Below are positions 40,446-47,549 of a DNA stretch of 64,000 bases, one piece after another. Numbering within the stretch: position 1 is the stretch's first letter; each line of letters opens with the position of its first letter. The position numbers and the translations under genes were made by a program. The notes under the pieces were generated by a model. That model saw only the letters and a program-made list of their open reading frames with translations. It did no database searches and was not told where the DNA came from. Origin of the DNA: Mycolicibacterium lutetiense (lineage in GTDB: Bacteria; Actinomycetota; Actinomycetes; Mycobacteriales; Mycobacteriaceae); contig NZ_JAGIOP010000002.1 of assembly GCF_017876775.1 (NCBI RefSeq), positions 1,178,001-1,242,000 of the forward strand. The letters run 5' to 3'.

Positions 40446-40748
40446 GAGCACACCGTGCGGACACGCACCGACAGAACCCCGTCAATCCGGCTGAGTTATC
40501 CCCAGCGTCGATTTCATCCACAGGACCGAGCGCAGACAACTACAGGCCATGCGCACCAGGTCCGCAGTCATCAATATTTCAAACACCATGCGTCAAGGTG
40601 GTTTTCGCTGCTATCGCTACTGTCATCCGAATGACGTAATCTTCGCCATGCGGCACACAGCAAACCTCTGCGAGCATATTCTCTTCCCGTAGGGTTACCA
40701 CTCGGCAACCTGCCGCGGCGAGTCCGTTCAGTGAACGCAGGTATCGAC
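40446..40748. other. Intergenic region between yraN and a secreted-protein gene
   Basis: 303 bases, AT-richer than the flanks, marking the left edge of the accessory block. Two near matches to the DnaA-box core lie 18 bases apart in the same orientation: TTATCCCCA (40496-40504) and TCATCCACA (40514-40522), each 8/9 to TTATCCACA. No promoter for the plus-strand gene could be fixed. Confidence 0.3.
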
Positions 40749-41099
40749 ATGAACGTCACTAAATTAATCATCGGCATCGCGACAATGACGACGGCACTGG
40801 CACTCTCACCGCCCGCGTGGGCCGGCCCAGACCCGCACATCCCTGACGGCAACGCAGGGTGGTGCCCGGGCGGCGATTACCGCGAGAAACTCTCTGGCGG
40901 CGGCAGATACTGCCTTGGCGAACCGTTCTCAAACGGCGCGTTTTACGCGCAACGTTGGGGCCACAGCCCGAGTCCTTTCGGCCCAGGCTATTGGATGGAC
41001 GGAGTGTCGTGCAGCGTGATGGTTGAGGGAACGGTCCAAGGTGGTATCCCCTATGGCGGTATCCCAGATTGCAACGGTGGGCCACGGGTTCTGCACTGA
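40749..41099 (+). CDS. Small secreted protein of unknown function
   Basis: 116 residues. A signal peptide spans residues 1-25 (MNVTKLIIGIATMTTALALS, cleavage after PAWA), leaving a mature chain of about 90 residues with four cysteines, rich in Gly, Pro and aromatic residues (NAGWCPGGDYREK, RYCLGEPFSNGAFYAQRWG, PGYWMDGVSCSV). It resembles the small Cys-containing exported proteins common in mycobacteria, probably disulfide-bonded. ATG 40749 is preferred over GTG 40731 because it places the Lys before the hydrophobic core. No function can be assigned. Confidence 0.72.
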   Translation: MNVTKLIIGIATMTTALALSPPAWAGPDPHIPDGNAGWCPGGDYREKLSGGGRYCLGEPFSNGAFYAQRWGHSPSPFGPGYWMDGVSCSVMVEGTVQGGIPYGGIPDCNGGPRVLH

Positions 41100-41297: not shown

Positions 41298-41316
41298 TTA
41301 GGTGATGCTCAGCTAA
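41298..41316 (+). promoter_or_regulatory. IdeR-type iron box upstream of ferric ABC operon
   Basis: TTAGGTGATGCTCAGCTAA matches 15 of 19 positions of the IdeR palindrome (TTAGGTTAGGCTAACCTAA as I remember it), keeping both outer half-sites. A possible -10, TAATGT (41290-41295), lies next to it, and the lipoprotein ATG is 20 bases downstream. Iron-dependent repression of the operon is inferred. Confidence 0.75.
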
Positions 41317-41335
41317 CGCCGAAGGGATTCACTCG

Positions 41336-42352
41336 ATGCGCACACGTTGGAGCCGCCGGGCTGCTGTTGTCCTGTCTGCCGTTGCCGTAGCCGCCGGTCT
41401 GGTCGGGTGCTCCGGTTCGGGGTCCGACGAGCTGCTGGTCTACAACGCCCAGCACGAATCGCTCACCAAGGAATGGATCGACGCGTTCACCAACGAGACC
41501 GGTATCAAGGTCACCTATCGGCAGGGCGGTGACACCGAGCTCGGCAACCAACTGGTGGCCGAGGGCAACGCCTCCCCCGCCGATGTCTTCCTCACCGAGA
41601 ACTCCCCGGCGATGGCCGCCGTCGAGCGGGCCGGGCTGTTCGCCGACATCGAGCAGCAGACCCTCGATCAGGTTCCGGCGCAGTACCGGCCGTCATCGGG
41701 CAAGTGGACCGGGGTGGCGGCACGGTCGACGGTTTTCGTCTACAACAAGGCCAAGCTGCCGGCTGACCAGCTGCCCCACTCGATCATGGATCTGCAGCAG
41801 CCGCAGTGGAAAGGCCGTTGGGGTGCACCGCCGGCCAAGGCGGACTTCCAGGCGATCGTCGCAGCCATGCTGGAACTGGCCGGCGAGCCGGCCACCGCGC
41901 AATGGCTGGCCGGTTTGAAGACCAATGCCGTTGTGCTCCAGGACAACATCGCCACCCTGCGCGCCGTCAACGCCGGCGAGGTCGACGGCGGAATCATCTA
42001 CCACTACTACTGGTTCCGCGATCAATCCAAGACCAAGGAGATCAGCGGCAACACCGCACTGCACTACTTCAAGAACGAAGATCCCGGGGCGTTCGTCAGC
42101 GTGTCCGGCGGCGGTGTCCTGAAATCGAGCAAGAAGCAGGATCAGGCCCAGCAGTTCGTCCGGTTCATCACCGGCAAGTCCGGCCAGGAAGTACTGGAGA
42201 AGGGCACCTCGTTCGAATACCCGGTCGCCAGCGGGGTCGCCGCCAACCCGGCCCTGCCACCGCTGGACACGTTGCAGGCGCCCATGGTCAACCCGTCCAA
42301 TCTCGATGCCGCCAAGGTCACCGACCTGATGACAAAGGCTGGCTTGCTGTAA
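41336..42352 (+). CDS. Ferric-iron-type ABC transporter substrate-binding lipoprotein
   Basis: 338 residues of the FbpA/FutA-like cluster of periplasmic iron-binding proteins. The signal peptide ends in a lipobox (LVGC, lipidated Cys25), followed by LLVYNAQHESLTKEWIDAF. Adjacent tyrosines in IIYHYYWFRDQSK correspond to the iron-coordinating tyrosines of this family. An IdeR-like box sits directly before the gene. It is the first gene of a four-gene unit, and its TAA stop touches the TTG start of the permease gene. Confidence 0.9.
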   Translation: MRTRWSRRAAVVLSAVAVAAGLVGCSGSGSDELLVYNAQHESLTKEWIDAFTNETGIKVTYRQGGDTELGNQLVAEGNASPADVFLTENSPAMAAVERAGLFADIEQQTLDQVPAQYRPSSGKWTGVAARSTVFVYNKAKLPADQLPHSIMDLQQPQWKGRWGAPPAKADFQAIVAAMLELAGEPATAQWLAGLKTNAVVLQDNIATLRAVNAGEVDGGIIYHYYWFRDQSKTKEISGNTALHYFKNEDPGAFVSVSGGGVLKSSKKQDQAQQFVRFITGKSGQEVLEKGTSFEYPVASGVAANPALPPLDTLQAPMVNPSNLDAAKVTDLMTKAGLL

Positions 42353-43924
42353 TTGGTCGCGACAGAAGTACCACCGGCTCAGCCGGTCCCGCAGCGTTCG
42401 GCAGCCGCCAGACCAGGACCGGTGCTGAGCACCGCGGTGGTCCTGCTGCTGGCCGCCACCTTCATCCCGCTGGGCTACGTCGGCTGGTCGGTGATCACCA
42501 CCGGCCCGAGCCGGGTGATCGAACTGGTGGTGCGACCCCGCGTCGGAGAGCTACTGCTCAATACCGTGGGCCTGGTCCTGATCACGGTGCCGGTGTGTGT
42601 GGTGCTCGGGGTGGGTGCGGCCTGGCTGGTTGAGCGCACCGACCTACCGGGGCGGACGTGGTGGCGGCCGGTGTTCGTTGCGCCGCTGGCGGTACCCGCA
42701 TTCGTCAACAGCTACGCCTGGGTCAGCGTCGTGCCGTCGCTGCACGGGTTCTCGGCGGGCGTGCTGATTGCAACGCTGTCCTACTTTCCGTTCGTCTATG
42801 TGCCCGCGGCGGCCACGTTGCGCCGTATCGATCCCGCGTTGGAGGAATCGGCCCAGGCGCTGGGATCGGGGTCGTCGGGGGTGTTCTTCCGGGTGGTGCT
42901 GCCGCAGCTGCGGCTGGCGATCCTGGGCGGCGGCCTGCTGATCGGTGTGCACCTGCTGGCCGAATACGGCGCGTTCGCGATGATCCGCTTCTCGACCTTC
43001 ACCACCGCGATCTTCGAACAGTTCCAGGCCACGTTCGACGGGGCCGCCGGAGCCACGCTCGCCGCCGTCCTCGTGCTGTTGTGCCTGCTGCTGTTGGTCA
43101 CCGAGGCCGCGGCCCGCGGTAATGCCCGCTTCGCCCGGGTGGGCTCGGGCGCTCAGCGGGCCACCACCCCAATGCACCTGGGCCGCACGATGGTGCCGGC
43201 CACGGCGGGGCTCCTGGTACTGGCGGCCCTGGCATTGGGAGTGCCGTTGTGGACGCTGACACGGTGGTTGTGGATCGGCGGCGCGCAGGTCTGGGAACCT
43301 GCGGAGATCGGTACCGCGTTGGTCCAGACCGCCGCGCTGGCCGGCGCGGCCGCGGTTCTGACCACCGTGCTGGCCTTCCCGTTCGCCTGGGTGGCGGTCC
43401 GGTACAGCGGCCTGCTGGCCCGCTCGATCGAAGGCGCCAACTTCATCACCAGCTCGATGCCCGGCATCGTCACCGCGCTGGCCCTGGTCACCGTGGCGAT
43501 CCGCTACGCTCCCCCGCTGTATCAGACTGCGGCCCTGGTGATCTGTGCCTATGTGCTGCTGTTCCTGCCACGCGCGCTGGTCAGCCTGCGCTCGGGCCTG
43601 GCGCAGGTGCCGCCGTCGGTGGAAGAGGCCTCACGCTCATTGGGCGCTTCTCCGACACGCACGTTCGTGCGCATCACCCTGCGGCTGACCGCCCCGGCCG
43701 CGGCCGCCGGCGCCGCACTGGTATTCGTCGCGGTGGCAACGGAATTGACCGCGACGCTGTTGCTCGCCCCCACCGGCACGCGCACCCTGGCGATGCGGTT
43801 CTGGTCGCTGAGCGGCGAGTTGGACTACGCCGCAGCCGCCCCCTACGCGCTGATGCTGATCGCGCTGTCCGTCCCGGTGACCCTGATGCTGTTGCGTCAG
43901 TCGACGAAGGTAGCCGCCCTGTGA
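42353..43924 (+). CDS. Ferric-type ABC transporter permease, two fused permease halves
   Basis: 523 residues with about twelve membrane spans, a tandem duplication of the binding-protein-dependent permease domain as in FbpB/SfuB. Each half carries the EAA loop that contacts the ATPase: RRIDPALEESAQALGSG and VPPSVEEASRSLGASPTRTF. TTG start immediately after the lipoprotein stop; the stop overlaps the ATPase GTG (GTGA). One polypeptide therefore supplies both channel halves. Confidence 0.92.
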   Translation: MVATEVPPAQPVPQRSAAARPGPVLSTAVVLLLAATFIPLGYVGWSVITTGPSRVIELVVRPRVGELLLNTVGLVLITVPVCVVLGVGAAWLVERTDLPGRTWWRPVFVAPLAVPAFVNSYAWVSVVPSLHGFSAGVLIATLSYFPFVYVPAAATLRRIDPALEESAQALGSGSSGVFFRVVLPQLRLAILGGGLLIGVHLLAEYGAFAMIRFSTFTTAIFEQFQATFDGAAGATLAAVLVLLCLLLLVTEAAARGNARFARVGSGAQRATTPMHLGRTMVPATAGLLVLAALALGVPLWTLTRWLWIGGAQVWEPAEIGTALVQTAALAGAAAVLTTVLAFPFAWVAVRYSGLLARSIEGANFITSSMPGIVTALALVTVAIRYAPPLYQTAALVICAYVLLFLPRALVSLRSGLAQVPPSVEEASRSLGASPTRTFVRITLRLTAPAAAAGAALVFVAVATELTATLLLAPTGTRTLAMRFWSLSGELDYAAAAPYALMLIALSVPVTLMLLRQSTKVAAL

Positions 43925-44976
43925 CCGACGCTGCCCTGCAGGTACACGGACTTCGCAAGTCCTTCAACGGCACCCCCGTGCTCGACGGAATCGACCTGAC
44001 CCTGGCACCGGGAACCATCACCGCCGTCGTCGGCTCCTCCGGATGCGGCAAGACCACGCTGCTGCGGGTGATCGCCGGCTTCGAATCGCCTGACGCCGGC
44101 ACCGTGACCATCGGCGGACGCGAGATGGCAAGCCCCACAAACACTGTCGCCCCACACCGGCGCGATGTCGGCTACGTGGCGCAGGACGGCGCACTCTTCC
44201 CACACCTGACGGTGGCCGAGAACGTCGCCTACGGCCTGCGCGAGCGCGGTACCGCGGCCCGGGCCAGGGTCAGCGAGCTGCTGGACACGGTGTCCCTGGA
44301 TGCCTCGTTCGCGCAGCGCCGGCCGCATGAGCTCTCCGGCGGCCAGCAACAGCGCGTCGCACTGGCCCGGTCTCTGGCCCGCCGGCCGGTGGTCATGCTG
44401 CTCGACGAGCCGTTCAGCGCCCTGGATACCGGGCTGCGCGCGGCCACCCGCAAGTCCGTGGCCCGGGCGTTGTCCGATACCGGGGTCACCACCCTGATCG
44501 TGACGCACGACCAGGAGGAGGCGCTCTCGATCTCCGATCAGGTCGCGGTGATGCGTGAGGGCAGGTTCACCCAGGTCGGAACACCCGAGCACGTATACCG
44601 CCAACCGGCCGACCGGTTCACCGCCGAGTTCCTCGGGGATTGCATCACGCTGCCCGGCACCGTCACCTCGGGATGGGCCGACAGCGCGCTGGGACGGATA
44701 CCGGTCCAGGCGGGTGCCGGCGACGGTCCCTGCACACTCATCCTGCGGCCTGAACAGCTTGTCGCCACGGCGATTTCGGACAGTGCCGGTGATGACGCGG
44801 CGGCCACCGTGGGGACCGTGATCGCCACCGAGTTCCTCGGGCATGACGTGCTGCTCACCATCGAGCCGCCGGCCGCCGGTGAGCCCATCGTCGTGCGTCA
44901 GCACAGCCTCAACCCGCCGGCACGCGACACCAAGGTCCGGATCGACGTGCGGGGCGCCGGGACGGCATTGCCTTGA
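43921..44976 (+). CDS. Ferric-type ABC transporter ATP-binding protein
   Basis: 351 residues. Walker A VVGSSGCGKTTLLR, Q-loop GYVAQDGALFPHLTV, signature HELSGGQQQRVALARSLA, Walker B PVVMLLDEPFSALD and H-loop TLIVTHDQEEAL are all intact. The C-terminal 110 residues form an OB-like regulatory domain (TOBE type: CTLILRPEQLVATA, GTVIATEFLGHDVLLTI) as in FbpC. Its end overlaps the TTG start of the fusion gene, tying that gene to the transporter. Confidence 0.93.
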   Translation: MTDAALQVHGLRKSFNGTPVLDGIDLTLAPGTITAVVGSSGCGKTTLLRVIAGFESPDAGTVTIGGREMASPTNTVAPHRRDVGYVAQDGALFPHLTVAENVAYGLRERGTAARARVSELLDTVSLDASFAQRRPHELSGGQQQRVALARSLARRPVVMLLDEPFSALDTGLRAATRKSVARALSDTGVTTLIVTHDQEEALSISDQVAVMREGRFTQVGTPEHVYRQPADRFTAEFLGDCITLPGTVTSGWADSALGRIPVQAGAGDGPCTLILRPEQLVATAISDSAGDDAAATVGTVIATEFLGHDVLLTIEPPAAGEPIVVRQHSLNPPARDTKVRIDVRGAGTALP

Positions 44977-47549
44977 ACCACCTCGTCGAGGCGCTGCGGG
45001 CCCACGGTGACCGGATCGCGGTGGTCACCGAAACCCAACAGGTCAGCTACTCGACTCTCGCCGATCTCGTGTCGCACGCCGCGACGGCGCTGGGCCCCGG
45101 ACGTCGACTCGTTCTTCTCGAGGCGAGCAACGACCTGCACACCCTGGTGCACTACCTGGGCGCGCTCGCGGGCGGCCATGTCGCCCTGCCGGTTCCGGCG
45201 GGCGGCGATCACCGCACGATCCTGCAGACGTACTCCCCCGATACCGTCGTCGATGCTGCGGGTATCCGCCACCGGCGCACCGACAGCACGCACCGGTTGC
45301 ACGACGACCTTGCGCTGCTGATGTCCACCTCGGGCAGCACCGGTTCGCCGAAGCTGGTGCGCCTGTCCTTCACCAACCTGATCAGCAACGCCACCGCGAT
45401 TGCCGAATACCTTGGGATCACTGAAACCGACCGGGCGGCAACCACCTTGCCACTGTCGTACTGCTACGGACTGTCGGTGGTCAACAGCCACCTGCTGCGC
45501 GGCGCGGGCCTGCTCCTCACGGAACGCTCGGTGGTCGACGACGAATTCTGGGAGATGTTCACCCGGTTCCGGGCCACCAGCTTCGCCGGTGTGCCGCATA
45601 CCTTCGAACTGCTGGACCGCACCGGCTTCGACGCCATGGATCTGCCCCACCTGCGGTACGTCACCCAGGCGGGTGGGCGGATGGCACCCGATCGGGTGCG
45701 CCGCTTCGCCGGGCTCGGGCAGCGCCGGGGCTGGCAACTGTTCGTGATGTACGGCGCCACCGAGGCGACCGCCCGGATGGCCTACCTGCCACCGGAATTC
45801 GCCCTGTCCCACCCCGAATCCATCGGCCGGCCGATCCCCGGTGGCCGCCTGTCCATTCGCCCCGGCGGTGGGTGGCCCGACGGCACCGGTGAGCTGGTCT
45901 ACCACGGCGCCAACGTGATGCTCGGGTATGCACAGCGTCCCGAGGATCTGTCGCTGGGTGCCGCGGTGGCGGAATTGCGCACCGGCGACATCGCGCGGTG
46001 TACACCCGACGGCCTGTACGAGATCATCGGCCGCAGCACCCGATTCGTGAAGCTGTTCGGCTTGCGCATCGACCTGGACCGCCTGCAAGCCGCCCTCGCC
46101 GAACGCGGGGTGACCGTGCTGTGCACCGAGGACGGCGAAACCCTCGCGGTGGCAGCCCTGGACACAGGCAGAACGACCGCCGGCGACGTGCGGCAGTTGA
46201 TCGCCACCGTGGCCGGCGTGCCGGTCGGTGTGGTGCGGGTGGCGATCGTCCGCGAACTACCCCGGCTGGTCTCGGGCAAGCCCGACTATGCGGCGCTACC
46301 CACGCTCGCCGCCGACGTCACCGTCGCCGATACCGCCGGCCTCCGGGGACTGTTCGCCGAAGTTCTGCATGTCCCTGCCGAATCCATCGACCGCGAGGCG
46401 AGCTTCGTCGATCTCGGCGGCAACTCGCTGTCCTATGTCGCGATGTCGGTTCGGTTGGAACGCACCCTGGGTGGACTGCCGAAGGATTGGCATCGGATGC
46501 CCCTGGTTGAACTCGAGTGCCTTCTCGGGCGCGGCCGCACACCTCGGCCGCGACGGTGGGCGACGGTGGAGACCAGCGTGGCGCTGCGTGCCGCGGCCAT
46601 CGTGCTCATCGTCGGCTCGCACGCGGAACTGTTCGCATTGTGGGGCGGCGCGCACATCCTGCTCGGGGTGGCCGGGTACAACTTCGGCCGGTTCTGCCTG
46701 ACGCCGGTGCCGTGGTCGACGCGGTTACACCACCTACGCAACACGATCGCCTGGATCGCGGTGCCCTCGATCACGTGGGTCGCGGTCGCACTGGTCCTCA
46801 CCGACGACTACCACGCATCGAACCTATTGCTGGCCAACAAGTTTCTCGGGCCGCACGACAGCATGACCGCCGGACGGTTGTGGTTCGTCGAAGTGCTGTT
46901 CTGGATTTTGGTGGCGCTGACCGCGGTGTGCGCGTTGCCGGGTGCCGACCGGTGGGAACGACGCCGCCCCTTCGCGTTCGCCGCGGCTTTCCTGGCATTC
47001 GGGCTGGTATTGCGTTACGACCTGCCCGGTTTCGGGCTGGGTCGCGAGGCCTGGTTCACGGTGCTGGCGTTCTGGTTCTTCGCGGCGGGGTGGGCGGCGG
47101 CCAAGGCCACCGCCACCTGGCAGCGGATCATCGTCACCGCCGTTCTGATGGTCGGAGTGCACGGCTACTTCGGCAACACCGGCCGGGAAACCTTGGTAAT
47201 GGCAGGGTTTGCGTTGTTGATCTGGCTGCCTACCGTGCGTTGTCCCGCGGTGGTGGCAGCCGGTTGCGGAGTGCTCGCCGAGGCGTCGCTGTACACCTAC
47301 CTCACGCACTACCAGATCTACCCGCTGTTCGGTGACCACCGGGCGCTCGGTGTGCTGGCCGCACTGGCCTTCGGCGTGGCGCTCACCTATCTCGCCAACG
47401 TGACGCGGACCCAGCTGGCTCGGCGAGGAAGATCACGCCGGATCGCGGTCGGCGACCAGCCCCTCCTGCACCAGGGTCGCGGCGATACCGCCGTCTGCAC
47501 CGATCAGGCTCGACGTGATGAGGCCCCGGCCGCGCGCAGCGGCCGGTGA
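44973..47549 (+). CDS. Adenylation-carrier-membrane acyltransferase fusion protein
   Basis: 858 residues in three parts. Residues 1-445 are an AMP-forming acid:carrier ligase (LLMSTSGSTGSPKLVRLSF near 115, VMYGATEATARMAYLPPE, LRTGDIARCTPDGLYEIIGRS, and LVSGKPDY with the catalytic Lys). Residues about 455-520 are a carrier domain with pantetheine Ser485 in DLGGNSLSYVAM. From about 535 to 810 there are roughly eight to ten membrane spans of the acyltransferase-3/OafA type (IVGSHAELFALWGGAHILLG holds the probable catalytic His). The last 45 residues are basic and lie antisense to the TesB gene. It presumably activates an acid, loads it on itself and transfers it across or at the membrane. Coupling to an iron-box ABC operon points to siderophore or envelope acylation; the product is unknown. 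Confidence 0.85.
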   Translation: MNHLVEALRAHGDRIAVVTETQQVSYSTLADLVSHAATALGPGRRLVLLEASNDLHTLVHYLGALAGGHVALPVPAGGDHRTILQTYSPDTVVDAAGIRHRRTDSTHRLHDDLALLMSTSGSTGSPKLVRLSFTNLISNATAIAEYLGITETDRAATTLPLSYCYGLSVVNSHLLRGAGLLLTERSVVDDEFWEMFTRFRATSFAGVPHTFELLDRTGFDAMDLPHLRYVTQAGGRMAPDRVRRFAGLGQRRGWQLFVMYGATEATARMAYLPPEFALSHPESIGRPIPGGRLSIRPGGGWPDGTGELVYHGANVMLGYAQRPEDLSLGAAVAELRTGDIARCTPDGLYEIIGRSTRFVKLFGLRIDLDRLQAALAERGVTVLCTEDGETLAVAALDTGRTTAGDVRQLIATVAGVPVGVVRVAIVRELPRLVSGKPDYAALPTLAADVTVADTAGLRGLFAEVLHVPAESIDREASFVDLGGNSLSYVAMSVRLERTLGGLPKDWHRMPLVELECLLGRGRTPRPRRWATVETSVALRAAAIVLIVGSHAELFALWGGAHILLGVAGYNFGRFCLTPVPWSTRLHHLRNTIAWIAVPSITWVAVALVLTDDYHASNLLLANKFLGPHDSMTAGRLWFVEVLFWILVALTAVCALPGADRWERRRPFAFAAAFLAFGLVLRYDLPGFGLGREAWFTVLAFWFFAAGWAAAKATATWQRIIVTAVLMVGVHGYFGNTGRETLVMAGFALLIWLPTVRCPAVVAAGCGVLAEASLYTYLTHYQIYPLFGDHRALGVLAALAFGVALTYLANVTRTQLARRGRSRRIAVGDQPLLHQGRGDTAVCTDQARRDEAPAARSGR

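Follow-up and report, generated by a model that had tools for sequence, protein, structure and literature searches.

The window analysed here is a 64,000-nucleotide stretch of the 6.35-Mb genome of Mycolicibacterium lutetiense, and it holds four genes that follow an IdeR/DtxR-type iron box. The genes encode a lipoprotein, a permease, an ATPase and a fusion protein, and they are packed closely after the box, with overlaps or a zero gap between them. The initial annotation had placed a box agreeing with 15 of the 19 IdeR consensus positions ahead of the operon, and had coupled the fourth gene to the third through a TTGA overlap. The coordinates of both are right, and the box ends 19 bases before the lipoprotein gene. 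On sequence grounds, the four genes almost certainly make up an iron-regulated operon. The features are listed below by window position.

41298..41316, no strand: IdeR/DtxR-type iron box, 15 of 19 positions (consensus match, simulation and upstream alignment)
41336..42352, + strand: ferric-iron-binding lipoprotein of the SfuA/YfuA type, with putative ligands H40, E88, Y224 and Y225
42353..43924, + strand: ferric ATP-binding cassette (ABC) permease with two BPD_transp_1 stretches
43921..44976, + strand: ABC ATPase with a TOBE_2 domain, in a GTGA overlap with the permease gene
44973..47549, + strand: adenylation-carrier-acyltransferase-3 fusion of 858 residues, in a TTGA overlap with the ATPase gene
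44973..46307, + strand: adenylation domain, residues about 1-445, with A10-motif K436 and no Asp at the alpha-amino-binding position
46341..46472, + strand: carrier domain, residues 457-500, with putative phosphopantetheine Ser485 at 46425-46427
46572..47450, + strand: membrane acyltransferase-3 type domain, residues about 534-826, with R539-x10-H550

The first three genes had been described as an Fbp-like ferric importer, and matches to SfuA and YfuA, together with the H, E, Y and Y positions, bear this out. The closest solved structures to the lipoprotein are 8k7n (438.6 bits), YfuA (428.9 bits) and SfuA (419.2 bits), the last two belonging to the anion-independent class. The lipoprotein keeps H40, E88, Y224 and Y225 at the compared positions, which we take to be iron ligands. 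Pfam recognised two BPD_transp_1 stretches in the permease, and ABC_tran and TOBE_2 in the ATPase. NCBIfam assigned no family above cut-off to the lipoprotein or the permease and none among the best 25 to the ATPase, so the identity of the importer rests on its solved relatives. Judged from these relatives, the importer very likely carries Fe3+.

Ferric-binding proteins that partner the fusion are not uniform. Across 50 of them (including that of the window), the four positions read HEYY in 21 and HVYY in five, while in 24 Q replaces E and, mostly, N or S replaces H. A single representative of each type was checked against solved structures, and these three resembled SfuA/YfuA, 7w3w, and the group of 7li0, 6g7n and 2pt1, the last of which we take to be FutA. 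One enzyme family thus pairs with three importer types, which points to ferric import as such as the shared partner.

The fourth gene had been read as a combination of acid-activating, carrier and membrane acyltransferase domains, and the 858-residue protein probably has all three. Named close homologues of the fusion are from Mycolicibacterium and Mycobacterium species. Pfam matched AMP-binding and PP-binding only, with no condensation, cyclisation or other assembly domain, and EntE-EntB was among the Foldseek matches. In the adenylation domain, G166 aligns opposite the alpha-amino-binding Asp of both LgrA domains and is invariant across the nine ligases compared; the domain most likely activates an acid other than an ordinary alpha-amino acid. 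R268, an invariant residue near the substrate pocket, might have pointed to an acidic substrate, but ligases outside iron loci have it as well, so the idea was dropped and no acid is named. A candidate natural ATPase-ligase fusion (P0136) was likewise dropped, as its junction reads like a frame-shifted ATPase tail.

The third part resembles acyltransferase-3 (AT3) proteins. PF01757 did not match the window protein and matched 13 of 19 relatives, while R539 and H550 of the R/K-x10-H pattern in the first helix are present in all 19. The Asp column of the DxxRx10H motif holds V, S, L or I in 19/19, and never Asp. The RxxR motif, placed in the first cytoplasmic loop, is thought to bind acyl-coenzyme A (acyl-CoA) in AT3 proteins. 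It is absent from the window protein and present in 13 of the 19 relatives, where its assignment to the same loop is our reading, and its presence there means that the motif provides no argument against CoA as donor. Foldseek of the acyltransferase model against the PDB returned nothing at E up to 0.001; a second structure aligner placed HGSNAT among the lower-ranked chains, and the model has the TmAT fold. No MBOAT was found in the window protein, the fold being of the AT3 type. A viral structure library gave one unnamed match (7.9e-4), and 29 pattern matches in viral contigs included no relative of the fusion. Domain and motif evidence thus points to an adenylation-carrier-acyltransferase-3 enzyme, an assignment we regard as probable.

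The box, TTAGGTGATGCTCAGCTAA at 41298-41316, is the best IdeR site of the window, the next best sites scoring 13, and no site scoring 15 arose in 200 simulated 64-kb sequences. In an alignment of 21 upstream sequences it is the most conserved of 91 windows of 19 bp, with a mean conservation of 0.82, against 0.48 upstream of it and 0.63 between box and start codon. A TATGTT-like element stands directly ahead of the box in many of these sequences. The host genome encodes IdeR (428.5 bits against IdeR 1fx7), a second DtxR-family protein that is closest to 5zr4 (380.6 bits) and in our reading MntR-like, and a third, weak DtxR-family match. Also upstream of the operon, at 40731-41099, lies a candidate gene, an open frame of 122 residues that begins like a signal peptide and has no Pfam match.

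A search of the host genome for the IdeR consensus with at most three mismatches, which leaves out the studied box with its four, returned one site, beside a DUF2470 gene. The reversed pattern, run as a control, also gave one match, so genome site counts alone say little. The sole site (L134, around 1496-1520) lies between the DUF2470 gene and a presumed prephenate dehydratase frame. For M. tuberculosis, rv3839 is reported with a DUF2470 domain and a putative IdeR site (PMC13258150), and because of this parallel the site served as a positive control of the consensus search.

We compared 80 named loci; they rank highest among at least 590 matches and are not a random sample. The importer lies upstream of the fusion in 22, downstream in four, divergent in 20 and convergent in three, and 12 loci end too near an edge to tell. 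One locus scored as a contig edge (L061) has an ATPase visible at its end, and in another (L085) the ATPase stands apart from the other importer genes. Of 20 regions from genomes of the same family, 10 have an importer next to the fusion; it is upstream in five of these, downstream in three and convergent in one, and in the last it is divergent and distant. Fusion carriers include Streptomyces, Micromonospora, Nocardia, Arthrobacter, Mycolicibacterium and others.

Clustering of the neighbours gave 32 clusters present in at least four loci, and the most widely shared are the fusion and importer genes; cluster 3 consists of frames antisense to the ATPase. A short-chain dehydrogenase (7 loci) and an aminotransferase (4 loci) make up two smaller clusters, each found in several genera. 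Ten other neighbours were identified by Pfam as methionine synthase, kinase, PAC2, DUF2397, SbcC-like, peptidase, oxidoreductases, a Cys/Met enzyme and an aminotransferase. At loci lacking the importer, the neighbours checked by Pfam are ordinary, for example methionine synthase and PAC2 in Nocardia, and most neighbours received no identification. In some Mycolicibacterium loci (L066, L067, L069, L070 and L120) the fusion lies between ComM/YraN and an acyl-CoA thioesterase as it does here, with the importer genes absent; in L066 it is preceded by genes for a LuxR-type regulator and a DUF1206 protein. The whole importer-fusion set also occurs on large plasmids, pMYCCH.01 of M. chubuense NBB4 and pDND3A of R. 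gordoniae (L136 3286-9550 and L137 6995-13458), and on a contig of 199,256 bases (L034).

Iron boxes accompany the system across these loci. Sites of at least 14/19 were found upstream of the fusion or the binding protein in 60 of 78 named loci (the other two of the 80 lie at contig edges), against 21 of 832 control upstream regions, which were set by mechanical open-reading-frame starts and may include antisense frames or regions with a promoter in common with the system. For binding-protein genes alone the count is 42 of 49. Fusion and importer can each carry a box when they are apart (L043, L047 and L048, 13 to 15 of 19), and among the 19 fusions lacking an importer in the flank, 12 have a site of at least 13.

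The partnership also extends to whole genomes. At class level, the fusion was scored where a match below 1e-60 fell in an open frame no shorter than 800 codons, and the binding protein where a match had E up to 1e-20; by these rules the fusion is present in 46 of 296 genomes. All 46 have a ferric-binding protein match, against 37 of the other 250, and in 38 of them, spanning 10 taxonomic families, the binding protein lies within 10 kb of the fusion. Adenylation-only matches (G276, G290, G323 and G350) were left out of these counts; G362 and G409 were counted although the matched stretch contains a stop, and for G245 and G355 the match extends no further than the first half of the enzyme. At family level, 40 of 201 genomes have a fusion match below 1e-60 (that of G043 is partial), and a binding-protein match is found in 40/40 of these against 49/161 of the others. 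Since the genomes are related, Fisher values overstate significance and a count by genus is safer: the binding protein is present in 19 of 19 genera with the fusion and in 22 of 95 without. Where the fusion has no importer in its flank, a binding protein is encoded elsewhere in all 18 named genomes covered (18 of the 19 such loci, L116 being left out). The dependence is one-way: the fusion is found only together with a ferric-binding protein match, and the binding protein is often found alone. As a control, NIS siderophore synthetases are mildly enriched (28/46 fusion genomes against 88/250 others). The remaining 18 of the 46, the host genome included, gave no NIS synthetase match, which makes a siderophore of that kind a less likely target.

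The initial annotation had proposed an iron-starvation system that joins import and acylation, with a siderophore, an envelope glycolipid or the ligand of the importer as possible targets. Linkage across genera in four gene orders, boxes that often go with a stand-alone fusion, and the one-way co-occurrence all speak for such a pairing. The gene set, the box, the domains, the motifs and the conserved partnership are there to be read in the DNA.

A parallel was found outside the Actinobacteria. On a Metabacillus plasmid, genes that all point the same way encode an acyl carrier protein, a ligase, an MBOAT, a 304-residue protein with no Pfam match, an Fe(3+) binding protein, a permease and an ATPase. 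Two boxes that resemble the Fur consensus (L140, 8483-8501 and 13220-13238) precede the carrier gene by 258 bases and the binding-protein gene by 32, where 0.04 matches would be expected by chance. In R. phaseoli (L135, 7977-16880), a distant fusion of 36% identity lies amid adenylate cyclase, YcaO-like and TfuA-like genes, a setting that suggests another use of the same enzyme type. In R. leguminosarum (L145, 1-9350), a related stand-alone ligase has among its neighbours a TonB-dependent siderophore receptor and a binding protein for iron-siderophores.

Each part of the system is of a known kind, and what seems new is that a putative self-loading AT3 is joined to a ferric importer. The importer resembles SfuABC, YfuABC and FbpABC in its binding protein, two-domain permease and ATPase and in the conserved H, E, Y and Y, and differs from them in being built on a lipoprotein in an actinobacterium, with an ATPase gene that overlaps the gene of an acid-activating membrane acyltransferase. 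Compared with AT3 proteins (PF01757; TmAT superfamily, including OafB, OatA and HGSNAT), the fusion has a ligase and a carrier in front; the Asp of DxxRx10H is replaced in 19 of 19, and RxxR is missing from the window protein. In its working it would be most like the Dlt system (DltA, DltC, DltB and DltD), which likewise combines a ligase, a carrier and a membrane acyltransferase with presumed outward transfer. Unlike Dlt, the system here has an AT3-type enzyme in place of an MBOAT, a single polypeptide, an iron box, an importer partner and no amino-binding Asp, whereas the Metabacillus parallel does have an MBOAT, like DltB. The siderophore assembly pair EntE-EntB shares the adenylation and carrier domains and the iron setting, but in the fusion no condensation or other assembly domain was found and the protein ends in a membrane acyltransferase. 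Among the literature matches listed, mostly titles and the beginnings of abstracts, none named a ferric importer linked to a ligase-carrier system of the AT3 or MBOAT kind, and the section on the S. coelicolor DmdR1 iron regulon in a recent reconstruction names no such locus (PMC12161575).

From these features we infer an iron response, the reaction and its direction, and a service of the product to the importer. At low iron, IdeR would be released, and the importer and the fusion enzyme would be made from one operon. The adenylation domain would activate one carboxylic acid, other than an ordinary alpha-amino acid, which would be loaded onto the phosphopantetheine arm of the adjoining carrier domain. 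The loaded arm, replacing CoA, would enter the acyltransferase-3 pore, and the acyl group would be passed to an acceptor located at the outer membrane face or beyond it. The product would be a small ligand, released or surface-bound, that collects Fe3+ or keeps it soluble near the lipoprotein, and the lipoprotein would take Fe3+ from this ligand for import. That the product serves the importer is about evenly balanced, or leans slightly towards being right. For the account as a whole, an IdeR-repressed operon that joins an Fe3+ importer to a self-loading acyltransferase making an iron ligand, the comparisons leave us modestly in favour. We put forward only tentatively, and with some doubt, the wider idea of a distinct strategy of iron acquisition, in which one membrane enzyme makes an outer iron ligand by passing an acyl group from its carrier through an AT3 pore, and the metal is taken from this ligand by a general Fe3+ importer. 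It would have arisen at least twice, with an AT3 in Actinomycetota under IdeR/DtxR and an MBOAT in Bacillota under Fur.

Several observations weigh against the ligand account, and some concern the enzyme itself. Distant fusions of 36-39% identity (two in Rhizobium, one in Sinorhizobium, two in Leisingera) have no adjoining ferric importer in any of the five regions. In Deinococcus and Parabacteroides, related ligases belong to polysaccharide clusters, the Deinococcus ligase having the same compared pocket residues. The enzyme type is thus not bound to iron, and surface acylation is a serious rival. Under that explanation, a surface glycan or lipid would be acylated at low iron as an envelope adaptation, the product would carry no iron, and the importer would be linked through shared regulation only. 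According to a review, characterised AT3 proteins modify extracytoplasmic glycans in many systems, and acyl-CoA is favoured over acyl carrier protein as donor (PMC9558356); the dlt operon of C. difficile is reported to be enhanced at low iron (PMC6311696). CoA may also be the acyl donor here, contrary to the carrier-loaded scheme, and an SfuA-type partner, with what appears to be a full protein iron-ligand set, need not use a chelate. Shared regulation alone would leave unexplained the adjacency in four arrangements and the binding-protein dependence in 46/46 and 40/40 genomes, and we consider envelope adaptation unlikely, at about one chance in a few.

Other counterpoints concern the linkage. 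The flanks of 19 named loci contain no importer, and seven of these fusions have no box of 13 or better, among them those of Nocardia L077, L079 and L092 and of M. aurum L072, which have no site above 11. The 49 family-level genomes with a binding protein and no fusion, and the fact that the Bacillota parallel is a single case, weigh in the same direction. The Nocardia and M. aurum loci, and the boxes found on both parts when they are separate, which imply that each can stand alone, could be taken to mean that two functions, each under iron control of its own, came to lie together by chance or neutrally. Such co-location is very improbable, given that the two are linked within 10 kb in 38 of 46 genomes, the 38 coming from 10 families, and that the fusion pairs with three importer types. 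Tailoring of a siderophore, in which the enzyme would acylate mycobactin, exochelin or a hydroxamate, would suit the iron box and the importer linkage; acyl steps are known in siderophore pathways, and the mild NIS synthetase enrichment also counts for it and against the ligand account. Yet the recurring neighbours (32 clusters, with most single neighbours lacking an identification) included no recognisable gene of siderophore assembly, NIS synthetases are missing from more than a third of the fusion genomes, that of the host among them, and Fbp-type proteins bind Fe3+ and are not known to bind large siderophores. We therefore regard tailoring as improbable.

If the ligand account is right, the operon would represent a system resembling a siderophore pathway but with only one biosynthetic gene dedicated to it, and many actinobacteria would have a route of iron gathering that genome mining for siderophores could miss, because that one gene is usually annotated only as 'AMP-binding protein'. 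It would show a fused ligase and carrier supplying a membrane acyltransferase and, to our knowledge, would be the first AT3 supplied by its own carrier rather than by CoA. Given the common pocket residues and the one-way dependence on a ferric-binding protein, both the substrate and the function can be tested directly in ordinary soil species.

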